Origin: Parafrankia irregularis
GTDB taxonomy: Bacteria > Actinomycetota > Actinomycetes > Frankiales > Frankiaceae
Length of the DNA stretch: 64,000 nt
Direction of reading: 5' to 3'
Assembly: GCF_001536285.1 (NCBI RefSeq)
Contig: NZ_FAOZ01000002.1
Coordinates: 372,001-436,000, forward strand
Numbering within the stretch: position 1 is the stretch's first letter; the number at the start of each line of letters is the position of its first letter. A program made the position numbers and the translations under genes. Below the pieces are notes generated by a model, which was not told where the DNA came from, did not search any database, and saw nothing but the letters and a program-made list of their open reading frames with translations. This document shows, one piece after another, positions 37,029-40,834 of this stretch.

Positions 37029-38633
37029 GTGAACGAGTCACCTCGTGGCAGCTATGGCTCCACCGATGCACATCCCGGATACGACACCGTTCTTGTGATC
37101 GACTTCGGCGCGCAGTACGCCCAGTTGATCGCTCGCCGTGTGCGTGAGTGCCATGTGTACTCGGAGATCGTCCCGTGGGATATGCCGGTCGCGGAGATCC
37201 TGGCTCGCCGTCCGGCAGCGTTGATCCTTTCGGGTGGCCCGAAGTCGGTCTACTCGCCGGGCGCCCCGCGGGTCGATCCGGCCCTCTTCTCCGCCGGGAT
37301 CCCGGTCCTCGGGATCTGCTACGGCCACCAGGTGATGGCCCAGGCGCTGGAGGGGACGGTCGCGCGTACCGGCACCGCCGAGTACGGGGCGACCCGCCTG
37401 CAGGTGAGCGACCCCGGAGTGCTCTTCGACGGGCTCGCCGTCTCCCAGCAGGTGTGGATGTCCCACGGTGACTCGGTGACGGCGGCGCCCCCCGGGTTCA
37501 GGGTGACCGCCTCGACCCCGTCGACGCCGGTCGCGGCGTTCGAGGATCCCGATCGTCGCCTCTACGGCGTGCAGTTCCATCCCGAGGTCGTCCACAGCGA
37601 GCGGGGGATGGACGTCCTGCGTCACTTCCTGCTCGCGGGAGCGGGCTGCCGGCCGTCCTGGACGATGCTCAACATCGTCGACGAGGCGGTCGCCGCCGTG
37701 CGCAAGCAGGTGGGCGGCGGTCGCCTCATCTGCGGTCTGTCTGGCGGCGTCGACTCGGCGGTGGCGGCCGCGTTGGTGCAGCGGGCCGTCGGGGATGCGT
37801 TGACCTGCGTGTTCGTCGACCACGGCCTGCTCCGGGCGGGGGAGGCCGAGCAGGTCGAACGCGACTTCGTCGCCTCGACCGGCGTCGAACTGGTGCACGT
37901 GAAGGCGGCCGACCGGTTCGCGGCGGCACTGGCCGGTGTCACCGATCCCGAGCAGAAGCGGAAGATCATCGGCCGCGAGTTCATCCGGGTCTTCGAGGAG
38001 GCCGCACGCGAGCTCGACGCGCGGGCCGAGGCCGAGGGCGCCAGGATCGGATTCCTTGTGCAGGGCACGCTGTATCCCGACGTCATCGAGTCGGGCTCGC
38101 CGACCGCGGCAAAGATCAAGTCCCATCACAATGTCGGTGGCCTTCCCGACGACCTGCAGTTCGCGCTGGTCGAGCCACTGCGCACGCTTTTCAAGGACGA
38201 GGTCCGCCACCTCGGCGAGGAACTCGGGCTCCCCGAGGAGATCGTCTGGCGCCAGCCTTTCCCCGGGCCCGGGCTGGCCGTGCGGATCATCGGCGAGGTG
38301 ACGCCCGAGCGGCTCGACATCGTGCGTGCCGCAGACGCGGTGGTCCGCGAGGAGATCCGCCGGGCCGGGCTCGACCGCGAGATCTGGCAGGTCTTCGCGG
38401 TGCTGCTCGCGGATGTTCGGTCGGTGGGGGTCCAGGGCGACGAGCGGACCTACGGTTGCCCGGTGGTTCTTCGTGCCGTGACCAGTGAGGACGCGATGAC
38501 GGCCGACTGGGCCCGGCTGCCTGCCGCGTTGCTGGAGCGCATCAGCAACCGGGTCGTCAACGAGGTGCCGCAGGTGAACCGGGTCGTCTACGACATCACG
38601 TCGAAGCCGCCCGGCACGATTGAGTGGGAGTAA
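37029..38633 (+). CDS. guaA: GMP synthase (glutamine-hydrolysing)
   Basis: It aminates XMP to GMP. The class-I glutaminase domain has the nucleophile loop GICYGHQ and the FHPEV histidine/glutamate. The ATP-pyrophosphatase domain starts with the P-loop [13 protein letters not shown] (about residue 236), and the C-terminal dimerisation domain ends KPPGTIEWE. It has 534 residues; the first 18 are a non-conserved extension. GTG 37029 has a TAGGCT box 6 nt upstream. It completes the IMP-to-GMP branch with guaB at 21.6 kb. Confidence 0.97.
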
Positions 38634-39240
38634 GGCGATCGGTTTCGGTGTGGCCGGTGGTCCGCCGGCTACACCGCTGGACCGTCGGCGGGCGGTCTTG
38701 GCGTCAGGTGTTGGGGGTTACATGTCCCAATATTGCGGTCGGGCGTCGATCGTCGTTGGTTTTGTGTCGTTTCGTGACTGTTTGTGGGTTCGCAGTGGCC
38801 CGTCGGCATGGTGCATGGGCGACGATGCATTCTGCGGATGTCCGTCTGGAGGCTCTCCGGGGGTTGACCTCGGTGCGGACTTCATAGACCTGTCCGGCCT
38901 AGTCCGGTGCCATCGTGAGCCACCCGCACTCGGTCGGGACATAGGTTTGGTTGCGCCGGCGGATGGTATTCCCGCTCGGATGTTCGAGGCGACTTCATAC
39001 GATCCCGGCGGCCGGTGTTTTGTGTCGGGGAGTCGCCGCTCGGTGGCGATAAACCTCCGAAGCGATCCGGTGATTCACCGTGGGGAACATAGCGAACCGG
39101 ACATTACGGATATTTAGTGGAGTATGAGGTGCTGCCTTCGGTTCACAACGGCGATCGCGTCGGAGTGGAACCGCCCGGTGTCGGGCTGGTCGCGGGCGGC
39201 TCGGTCGCCCGGACGAAGCGTCCCCTGCCGGCCGGCCGGT
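38634..39240. other. Long intergenic region between guaA and the ilvA leader
   Basis: About 600 bp, clearly less GC-rich than its surroundings from 38700 on. A hairpin GTGT-g-GCCGG / CCGGC-t-ACAC (38648-38674) may terminate guaA. Open frames exist but lack ribosome sites and actinobacterial codon bias. No known RNA family was recognised. Confidence 0.4.
38648..38674 (+). terminator. Possible guaA terminator
   Basis: A 9-bp stem with one opposed mismatch and a 7-nt loop lies 15 bp after the guaA stop. Confidence 0.4.
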
Positions 39241-39269
39241 TTGACTACGTCCGCGCCGCGGCGCACTCT
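39241..39269 (+). promoter_or_regulatory. Candidate promoter of the ilvA leader
   Basis: TTGACT (39241-39246), a 17-bp spacer and CACTCT (39264-39269) stand 6 nt before a GTG. The -35 is near consensus; the -10 keeps the A at position 2 and T at position 6. Confidence 0.5.
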
Positions 39270-39275
39270 AGAGGT

Positions 39276-39305
39276 GTGCCGCTGTTCCTCATGGTGATTA
39301 CGTAG
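39276..39305 (+). CDS. Probable leader peptide of a transcription attenuator
   Basis: A 9-codon frame starting at GTG reads Met-Pro-Leu-Phe-Leu-Met-Val-Ile-Thr-stop. It lies 6 nt after a promoter-like -10 and has no ribosome site, so it would be translated from a leaderless RNA. Its last codons are for valine, isoleucine and threonine, and it carries two leucine codons. It is followed at once by a hairpin and then a terminator ahead of the threonine dehydratase gene, whose pathway makes isoleucine. Ribosome stalling at these codons could therefore control read-through. The frame is short, so this depends on context. Confidence 0.55.
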   Translation: MPLFLMVIT

Positions 39306-39335
39306 GCGCGCGACCGCCCGAGAGGGTCGCGCGCC
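39305..39335 (+). promoter_or_regulatory. Attenuator pause hairpin
   Basis: A perfect 11-bp stem (GGCGCGCGACC with GGTCGCGCGCC), 9-nt loop, starts in the leader stop codon. A ribosome stalled on the Val-Ile-Thr codons would cover its left arm. The freed GAGGGT (39322-39327) could then pair with GCCCTT (39338-39343) of the terminator. Confidence 0.55.
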
Positions 39336-39368
39336 AAGCCCTTCCGCCCATCGGCGGGGGGCTTTTTT
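39336..39368 (+). terminator. Intrinsic terminator ahead of ilvA
   Basis: AAGCCC-tt-CCGCC, loop CATC, GGCGG-g-GGGCTT, followed by six T. A U-run terminator is rare in this window, and it stands before, not after, a gene. Confidence 0.8.
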
Positions 39369-39421
39369 GTTTGCCGCGGCCGCAGGGGTGAGGTGGCCGC
39401 CGAGCCACCAGGAGAGTGTCG

Positions 39422-40834
39422 ATGACATCACCATCAGTAAGAAGGCCGCCGGCTGATGGCGCCGGGTCGTCCCGCGCGGACGACCCGACCGACGCCGACG
39501 GCGCCGGAGAACGTCAGGGCGGGGCAACGGGGGCCCTCGCCCGGATCAGTCCGCAGTCAGCCGTGCCGGCGCCCGAACGCGCCCGAGGCACGCTGCCCGC
39601 CCGCCGCCCGTCCGGTGGGCGCACCGCTCCCCGCGCCCGCGGTTGTGACGCGGCCGGGCTGCGTCCCGCCGGCCTTGCTGGCAGCTTGGGACTGGCTGGC
39701 AGCTCGGGGCTGGCTGGCACCGCTGGGCTGGCTGGCAGCTTCGGCCTGTCCGGCGGTCCTGTCCGCGCTGGCGTTTCCGGCCTGCCGGTCGATCTCGCCG
39801 AGGTCACCGCGGCCGCCGGGCGGCTGGGCGGTGTGGCGCGTCGTACCCGGGTCGTGCCGGCGGCCGGGAGTCTGACCGGGCATGTCGGTGCGCCGGTCTG
39901 GCTCAAGTGCGAGCACGAGCAGCACACCGGTTCCTTCAAGCTGCGGGGCGCGTTCAACCGGATCGCGACCGCGGGGCCGCGGGCACGCGCGCGGGGAGTC
40001 GTCGCGGCGAGCGCCGGCAACCACGCCCAGGGCGTCGCCTTCGCGGCGGCTCATTTCGGCGTCGCCGCGACCATCTTCGTGCCCGAGGGCGCGAACCCGG
40101 CCAAGGTCGCGCGTACCCGTGCGCTGGGCGCCCGCGTCGAGCACGTACCGGGGGGCGTCGACGCCGCGCTGCGAGCCGCCGACGCCTACGCCGCCGCCAG
40201 CGGTGGCCTGCTGGTCCACCCGTTCGACGACGCGGCTGTCATCGCGGGCCAGGCAACGATCGGGCTGGAGCTCCTGGAACAGGTGCCGGAGCTCTCGACA
40301 GTGATCGTCGGGGTCGGTGGTGGGGGTCTGCTGAGTGGTCTGGCGGTGGCGCTCAGTGGCCTGCGGCCGGACGTACGCGTGATCGGCGTTCAGGCGGCCG
40401 CCGCGCCGGCGTTCGCGTCGTCCTTTCACACCGCCCGCCGTCTGGTCGTCCCACCGGGCGCTGCCGGTAGCGGCGCGGGCTGCCTCGCCGATGCCGGCCA
40501 GGCCGGGGCAGCCACGGGAACCGTGGCCGACGGCATGGCGGTCGGCGCGCCCGGCCGGCTTACCCTGGCACTGGCCGAACGGCTGGTGGACGACGTCGTC
40601 ACGGTCGACGAGGACGCGTTCTGGGAGGCGATGGTCGCGCTGCGGCGGTCGGGCCACCGGGTGGAGCCCGCGGGAGCCGCCGGCGTCGCGGCCCTGCTGC
40701 GGATGCCCGAGCTCGCGGGCGGTGTCACGGCGGTGGTGCTCTCCGGCGGCAATCTCGACCCCGCGGTGGACACCAGGGTGGCCGCGCTCGCGGCCGACGC
40801 GTCCGCCGGCGCTCGGACGAACGCGCCTGGGTGA
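39422..40834 (+). CDS. ilvA: Threonine ammonia-lyase (threonine dehydratase)
   Basis: A PLP-dependent fold-type-II enzyme that deaminates threonine to 2-oxobutanoate, the entry to isoleucine. The PLP lysine is in HTGSFKLRGAFN (about residue 169), the asparagine loop is SAGNHAQG, and the phosphate-binding Gly loop is GVGGGGLLSGLA. The catalytic core covers about residues 116-460; there is no C-terminal ACT-like regulatory domain. The first 115 residues are low-complexity, including GLAG repeats, so translation might begin later, but ATG 39422 has AGGAG 7 nt upstream. A serine/threonine dehydratase of catabolic type is possible; the attenuator ahead of it favours a branched-chain role. Confidence 0.85.
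   Translation: MTSPSVRRPPADGAGSSRADDPTDADGAGERQGGATGALARISPQSAVPAPERARGTLPARRPSGGRTAPRARGCDAAGLRPAGLAGSLGLAGSSGLAGTAGLAGSFGLSGGPVRAGVSGLPVDLAEVTAAAGRLGGVARRTRVVPAAGSLTGHVGAPVWLKCEHEQHTGSFKLRGAFNRIATAGPRARARGVVAASAGNHAQGVAFAAAHFGVAATIFVPEGANPAKVARTRALGARVEHVPGGVDAALRAADAYAAASGGLLVHPFDDAAVIAGQATIGLELLEQVPELSTVIVGVGGGGLLSGLAVALSGLRPDVRVIGVQAAAAPAFASSFHTARRLVVPPGAAGSGAGCLADAGQAGAATGTVADGMAVGAPGRLTLALAERLVDDVVTVDEDAFWEAMVALRRSGHRVEPAGAAGVAALLRMPELAGGVTAVVLSGGNLDPAVDTRVAALAADASAGARTNAPG
39661..39756 (+). repeat. Degenerate repeat encoding GLAGS
   Basis: About five units of the type GGGCTGGCTGGCAGC (15-18 bp) encode Gly-Leu-Ala-Gly-Ser in the N-terminal extension of the dehydratase. Confidence 0.7.

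Follow-up and report, generated by a model that had tools for sequence, protein, structure and literature searches.

A candidate isoleucine-sensing leader-peptide attenuator ahead of ilvA in Frankiaceae, with a stop-anchored hairpin adjoining the predicted terminator

How is expression of ilvA adjusted to the supply of isoleucine in an organism whose threonine ammonia-lyase carries no ACT domain? The question is raised by the 64,000-nucleotide stretch of Parafrankia irregularis DNA analysed here (the window), where ilvA occupies 39422..40834 of the forward strand, on which the window features described below lie. Direct reading placed a -35 box, TTGACT (39241..39246), 17 nt upstream of a -10 element, CACTCT (39264..39269), followed after 6 nt by a GTG that opens a nine-codon frame (39276..39305; GTG CCG CTG TTC CTC ATG GTG ATT ACG TAG), which encodes MPLFLMVIT, carries a putative control codon, ATT for Ile, at 39297..39299, and is probably leaderless. 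A hairpin with a perfect 11-bp stem, H1 (39305..39335; 39305-39315 paired with 39325-39335), begins at the G of the TAG stop codon and is adjoined by an intrinsic terminator, T (39336..39368), whose hairpin (39336-39364) and six T (39363-39368; U6 in the RNA) were found by direct reading and by terminator prediction, which places a predicted terminator between leader and gene. A post-terminator segment (39376..39409) and a ribosome binding site, AGGAG (39410..39414), precede the ATG at 39422 that, judged from the sequence, is most likely the ilvA start; the alternative GTG at 39416 is absent in one homologous locus (L011). Promoter, frame, 11-bp hairpin and terminator with six U lie where the preliminary description had put them. 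Its near-consensus promoter stood for the -35 box and fell for the -10 element, as CACTCT has two of six matches to TATAAT; no sigma70-type promoter site was predicted in 38500-40000. The same arrangement, TTGAC followed by T or G and CAnnnT at a 17/18-nt spacing, was nonetheless present in 32/32 homologous loci.

To place the element in its family, we located IlvA in 34/35 Frankiaceae genomes (E <= 1e-60) and read the element in 32 of the 34 loci, always ahead of ilvA, the two loci without it being L039 and L040. A covariance model, R1, built from 29 of the Frankiaceae ilvA leaders matched 33/35 genomes with one strong copy each, the negatives being one genome each of genera g3 and g5; one genome (G026) had a second, weak match (E 0.0078), and in another (G011) the element was present on a contig where ilvA was not found. 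When 84,980 species genomes were scanned with a sequence pattern, 23 stretches were returned, 20 of them in Frankia, Parafrankia or related records. Three proteobacterial matches (L044, L047, L060), with neither promoter nor terminator, were discarded as chance. In all 32 loci an in-frame start codon lies 6-7 nt after the conserved -10 element, a spacing from which the putative 5' end of the transcript is placed here, and the frame is without stops up to the last codon. Insertions of 5, 15, 15 and 25 codons, all of them in frame, lengthen four of the leaders. The codon after the last residue is TAG in 29 loci and TGG in three; in the latter the frame reads on into H1 for another 4 to 6 codons. 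In alignment A2, H1 and T both covary, with 11/12 pairs changed on both sides and 0/500 shuffles as high, a count to be read with the fact that A2 was fitted to the structure. The leader peptide ahead of ilvA, probably of leaderless type, is borne out by conservation of frame, hairpin and terminator, and a locus that had lost the frame and kept the hairpins, named beforehand as evidence against it, was absent among the 32. That the hairpins merely terminate an upstream gene or stabilize the RNA, with an incidental frame and no regulation, would accord with guaA ending shortly 5' of the element in at least several genomes. The sequence 5' of the promoter, however, varies between Frankiaceae genera while the element remains with ilvA, indicating that T belongs to ilvA and not to its neighbour; since promoter and frame are also conserved in 32/32 loci, we regard this explanation as highly improbable.

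Which amino acid the leader would sense was sought in the codons before the stop. ATG-x-ATT occurs in 32/32 leaders, and Met and Ile are the only invariant residues near the peptide end. The Ile codon is always ATT, compared with 7/98 Ile codons in four large open reading frames of the window. The residue before Ile is A in 16 leaders, V in 6, I in 5, G in 4 and P in 1, and the last residue is Thr in 27, Asn in 3 and Ser in 2. Charging of Val, Ile and Thr tRNAs together, as initially proposed, is not borne out by this pattern, as the position of Val is free to vary and 5/32 leaders have another residue for Thr, Ile alone of the three being kept; the species sensed is most likely Ile-tRNA. Together, the conserved frame, the in-frame insertions and the invariant ATT point to a leader that would be translated and whose control codon specifies the pathway product.

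We then asked where related leaders occur. R1 matched 137/393 genomes of the class, 104 of them outside Frankiaceae. Sorted by downstream motif, the 80 rows fetched from 116 non-family class rows comprised 65 cimA, 5 ilvB, 3 leuS and 1 leuA leaders, 3 left unassigned (L104, L109, L145) and 3 apparently false matches (L144, L160, L161), which resembled coding sequence and were left out of the leader table. L104 shows a leader, M(M)FALVIIM and a stop, with H1 and T. The cimA-like frames tested were citramalate synthase above cut-off in 9/9 cases, and L136 was leuA. Although made solely from ilvA leaders, R1 matched 65/65 supplied cimA-leader loci over model positions 1-100. Each cimA leader carries 1-5 Ile codons (64 leaders counted, L150 being left out of codon and fold counts and L163 not being among the parsed leaders), and ATT makes up 85/155 of these codons vs. 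79/930 in the cimA frames. Like these, the ilvA leaders have a short ORF with Ile close to its stop, an H1 that lies at that stop and a T that adjoins it. A second model, R2, made from 65 cimA and 20 ilvA leaders, matched 46/396 genomes of the phylum (E <= 1e-4). The 40 rows fetched from 47 (own match apart) included 17 ilvB, 8 cimA, 1 leuS and 1 leuA leaders, with 13 left unassigned; in the genome of the window R2 found the ilvA leader only, the three further matches having E above 1. One R2 match, at L265, lies ahead of a frame that by its sequence appears prephenate-dehydratase-like. The leuA (L136, L284) and leuS (L133, L141, L159, L272) leaders are similar in geometry and place Leu codons ahead of the stop, as in MTNLLLT and MNRALLA; with Leu codons preceding leuS and leuA, the control codons change with the product. 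Of these six leaders, five have CTT as the last Leu codon and L284 has CTC, where the Ile leaders mostly have ATT.

These comparisons bear on the possibility that M-x-I-T-stop acts as an arrest peptide, stalling the ribosome on free isoleucine or 2-oxobutanoate in the way that TnaC stalls it on free tryptophan. The invariant Met and Ile, Thr in 27/32 and TAG in 29/32 leaders would suit such a peptide, but the stop is lost in 3/32, the residues flanking the Ile run differ among cimA leaders, and the leuS and leuA leaders have Leu in place of Ile, and we consider an arrest peptide very unlikely.

Within Frankiaceae, cimA was found above cut-off in 32/34 genomes, and R1 gave no match at cimA. A different conserved leader was seen at 28/30 Frankiaceae cimA loci (L176-L205, the own genome being L196; exceptions L180 and L183), many of them having GGCGGCGAACCCGTC...GTCGCGCG..CCGGTC..GACCGGGCGCGTG ahead of the start. 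Compared with Rfam at E values of up to 0.1, four of these loci gave no match; the leader is possibly a structured RNA.

Having identified these leaders, we examined the geometry of the two hairpins. In minimum-energy folds of 32 ilvA and 63 cimA leaders, H1 and T were predicted as two strong hairpins, distinct from each other, with a gap of 0-2 nt in 95/95 cases and of 0 in 64, although such folds favour short gaps. Counted from the first base of the nominal stop codon, H1 begins 1-3 nt downstream in 31/32 ilvA and 54/63 cimA leaders. In a second set of phylum loci the gap was 0-2 nt in 28 of 32 leaders parsed from 40 and 4-5 nt in the other four.

A classical three-hairpin attenuator would require the 3' arm of H1 to pair with the 5' arm of the terminator when a stalled ribosome keeps the other H1 arm occupied, be it by the 6-bp antiterminator that the preliminary description had offered (39322-39327 with 39338-39343) or by a similar pairing. 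Predicted folds with the 5' arm blocked do give short pairings in several loci, e.g. between CGGG and UCCG, and the proposed pairing itself appears in the folds of L008 and L009. We combined folding with the 5' arm blocked, shuffling of terminator arms, duplex energies (ORF, arm 1, loop and arm 2, each against both terminator arms) and E. coli controls. The 3' arm of H1 paired with the 5' arm of the terminator no better than in shuffled sequence, which leaves the 6-bp proposal unsupported. For upstream RNA against that arm in 94 leaders (62 of the 63 cimA leaders entering the z tests, one terminator arm being under the length limit), the mean z was +0.49 for 32 ilvA and +0.56 for 62 cimA leaders, about +0.5 overall; P fell below 0.05 in 1/94, and the mean P of the pairing gain against shuffled terminator arms was 0.75-0.86 by genus. 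The E. coli controls thrL, trpL, hisL, leuL, ilvL and pheL gave z of -0.6 to -4.0, negative in 6/6, so that the population shift of the 94 leaders is opposite in sign; as only 3/6 controls reached P below 0.05, the test has limited power when applied to an individual leader. The combination that came closest to a signal, arm 2 against the terminator 3' arm, gave a mean z of -0.54 in the ilvA leaders (22% of them below -1) and of -0.06 in the cimA leaders. The leader ORF against either H1 arm gave mean z between -0.11 and +0.40. A long-range pair proposed by RNAalifold, joining the Met-x codons to a post-terminator GGYCA, changed on both sides in two sequences at one pair and was broken in a few. 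No mutually exclusive antiterminator emerged from the 94 leaders. A ribosome at Ile or at the stop would, moreover, block the same arm of H1, which also counts against the three-hairpin scheme. Antiterminators are, on the other hand, reported for C. glutamicum ilvBNC (PMC11857589) and Corynebacterium ilvB-II (PMC10272879), and on balance we judge the classical scheme unlikely for this locus, though it deserves more weight than the other alternatives considered here.

Because no base-paired antiterminator was found, H1 and T may act as one terminator, and we think it probable that the element attenuates transcription of ilvA in response to charged Ile-tRNA, through a ribosome-gated tandem of stop-anchored H1 and T. 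The leaderless nine-codon ORF would be translated as it emerges from the polymerase. With ample Ile-tRNA the ribosome would finish fast and depart, H1 would fold against T, and transcription would stop. With scarce Ile-tRNA it would wait with AUU in the A site and its leading edge, placed from usual footprint sizes, within the H1 5' arm; H1 would then be only partly folded and more polymerases would read through into ilvA. H1 and T would in this way stack into a single tandem-hairpin terminator, and the ribosome, by melting H1, would set how efficiently it works. Since H1 would also be melted by a ribosome that has reached the stop codon, the model rests on dwell time. Three observations bear against it: T alone is predicted to be strong (-16.0 to -23.7 kcal/mol, thermodynamic and not kinetic energies), which makes the effect of losing H1 the weak point of tandem action; TGG shifts the stop into H1 in three of 32 loci; and changes of control codons in S. 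coelicolor ilvB were reported to be without effect (PMC1262725). As a precedent for tandem action, two hairpins 3' of M. smegmatis gyrA are described as terminating better than a single one (PMC8355165, citing other work).

Downstream of T, the segment at 39376..39409 can pair as GCGGCCGC with GTGGCCGC (H3) or as GGTGGC with GCCACC (H4). The two pairings are mutually exclusive, GGTGGC being common to both, and H4 ends beside the ribosome binding site. In 25 aligned loci 97.5% of H3 and 96.6% of H4 cells are paired; compensatory changes were not seen in these loci, the variation being one-sided (G-U) and no better than shuffles. H3/H4 could add control at translation. In L026 a palindromic insertion (around 1404-1521) lies between H4 and the ribosome binding site of ilvA, and the leader TAG of the same locus is replaced by TGG. 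The strong conservation of the segment would also fit an RNA bound by a protein or small molecule, with the frame secondary. Against such binding, H1 varies widely in loop length and sequence, and the window contains 0 Rfam families at gathering score, its best sub-threshold match being RF02883 (20.7 bits vs. a cut-off of 40); we consider this alternative highly improbable.

The relation of the leader to the enzyme was examined next. Pfam found only PALP in the window IlvA, with one weak collagen-repeat match below cut-off besides, upholding the earlier statement that it lacks an ACT domain. Its best NCBIfam match was TIGR01127 (positions 10-293 of 380, below cut-off), for which ilvA was the sole match in the own genome at E <= 1e-50, and 24 residues follow its SGGNLD motif. 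All 30 leader-bearing IlvA proteins that could be judged have 16-64 residues after SGGN-x-D, leaving no room for ACT; tail length could not be judged in L034 (masked stretch), L041 and L040, the latter a locus that lacks the leader (both at contig ends). The IlvA of G019, a Frankiaceae genome with an ACT domain and no leader, and five other no-leader IlvA have 93-98 residues there, and Pfam recognized ACT in 6/6 of these (5 above the curated score) vs. 0/3 leader-bearing proteins. TIGR01127, which spans the C-terminal regulatory region, was above cut-off in 62/108 class genomes and in 1/35 Frankiaceae genomes, namely G019. Upstream regions of 40 non-Frankia ilvA genes (one, L230, cut to 183 bases), drawn from 88 non-Frankia genomes with an IlvA match, contained 0 R1 elements; 32 of these 40 no-leader genes belong to the 62 TIGR01127 genomes and the other 8 genomes lie outside that sample. 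On tail lengths and Pfam results, leader and ACT domain are mutually exclusive where judged, a correlation over few independent events. The leader is present where the feedback domain of the enzyme is absent, a possible replacement of one layer of control by another.

Cumulatively, our findings suggest that the leader probably throttles the gene of the first isoleucine-synthesis enzyme when isoleucine is plentiful, and a candidate isoleucine sensor precedes both alternative pathway entry enzymes, cimA in many actinomycetes and ilvA in Frankia. If H1 and T really need no antiterminator, a ribosome can gate a terminator by other means than the textbook relay, and gating of this kind could account for earlier actinobacterial leaders that misfit the classical model. 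More tentatively, and with rather less confidence than we place in attenuation at ilvA, the leaders may form an Actinomycetota-wide class of antiterminator-less attenuators in which the control codons end before the stop, H1 starts in the stop and T adjoins (Ile ahead of cimA, Leu ahead of leuS and leuA, mixed ahead of ilvB), and which moved to or arose at Frankia ilvA, replacing lost ACT feedback. Throughout the class a waiting ribosome would weaken the two-hairpin terminator by melting its first half.

Leader-peptide attenuation likewise governs the E. coli ilvXGMEDA operon, where ilvL stands ahead of ilvX, ilvG, ilvM and ilvE. There, ilvA is a distal gene of the ilvL-attenuated operon, under branched-chain control, and ilvL combines a multi-codon Ile/Val/Leu sensor with an antiterminator. 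The Frankia ilvA leader differs from ilvL in serving one gene, in its one invariant Ile codon, in a start beside the -10 element and in that no antiterminator was found. In actinobacteria, leader-peptide attenuation is known, including leaderless and branched-chain examples (PMC1262725, PMC8079986, PMC11857589, PMC10272879, PMC13236596). The C. glutamicum ilvBNC leader and the ilvB-II motif (PMC11857589, PMC10272879) similarly have a peptide near the 5' end, branched-chain codons and a terminator, but differ in a reported antiterminator, a peptide usually of 15-17 residues and another target gene. In Streptomyces lividans, ilvL, leuL2 and trpL1 likewise combine a short leaderless peptide with hairpin(s) and a U-rich run downstream (PMC8079986), so that leaderlessness is not what makes our element unusual; neither an ilvA nor a cimA leader is described in the available part of that paper, in whose text 'ilvA' occurs 0 times. 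Actinobacterial leuS and ilvB leaders (Seliverstov et al. 2005, PMC1262725) are likewise short ORFs with control codons that overlap or adjoin a terminator, the leuS leaders differing in their described antiterminators; for several further pathways, that of threonine included, the authors report that they saw no conservation of RNA structure. Mycobacterial leaderless polycysteine ORFs are likewise described as amino-acid-responsive attenuators and differ in serving a cysteine operon. Partial open-access texts on ilvA, threonine dehydratase and Frankia (including PMC11857589) yielded no report of an actinobacterial ilvA leader, those on citramalate with leader peptide or attenuation yielded Methanothermobacter only, and the premature-terminator survey PMC2965389 contains 'ilvA', 'citramalate' and 'Frankia' 0 times. 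As far as open-access searches go, what the present element adds to these systems is Frankia ilvA as a target, the cimA leaders, a tandem arrangement in which no antiterminator signal was seen, and the exchange of leader for ACT domain.
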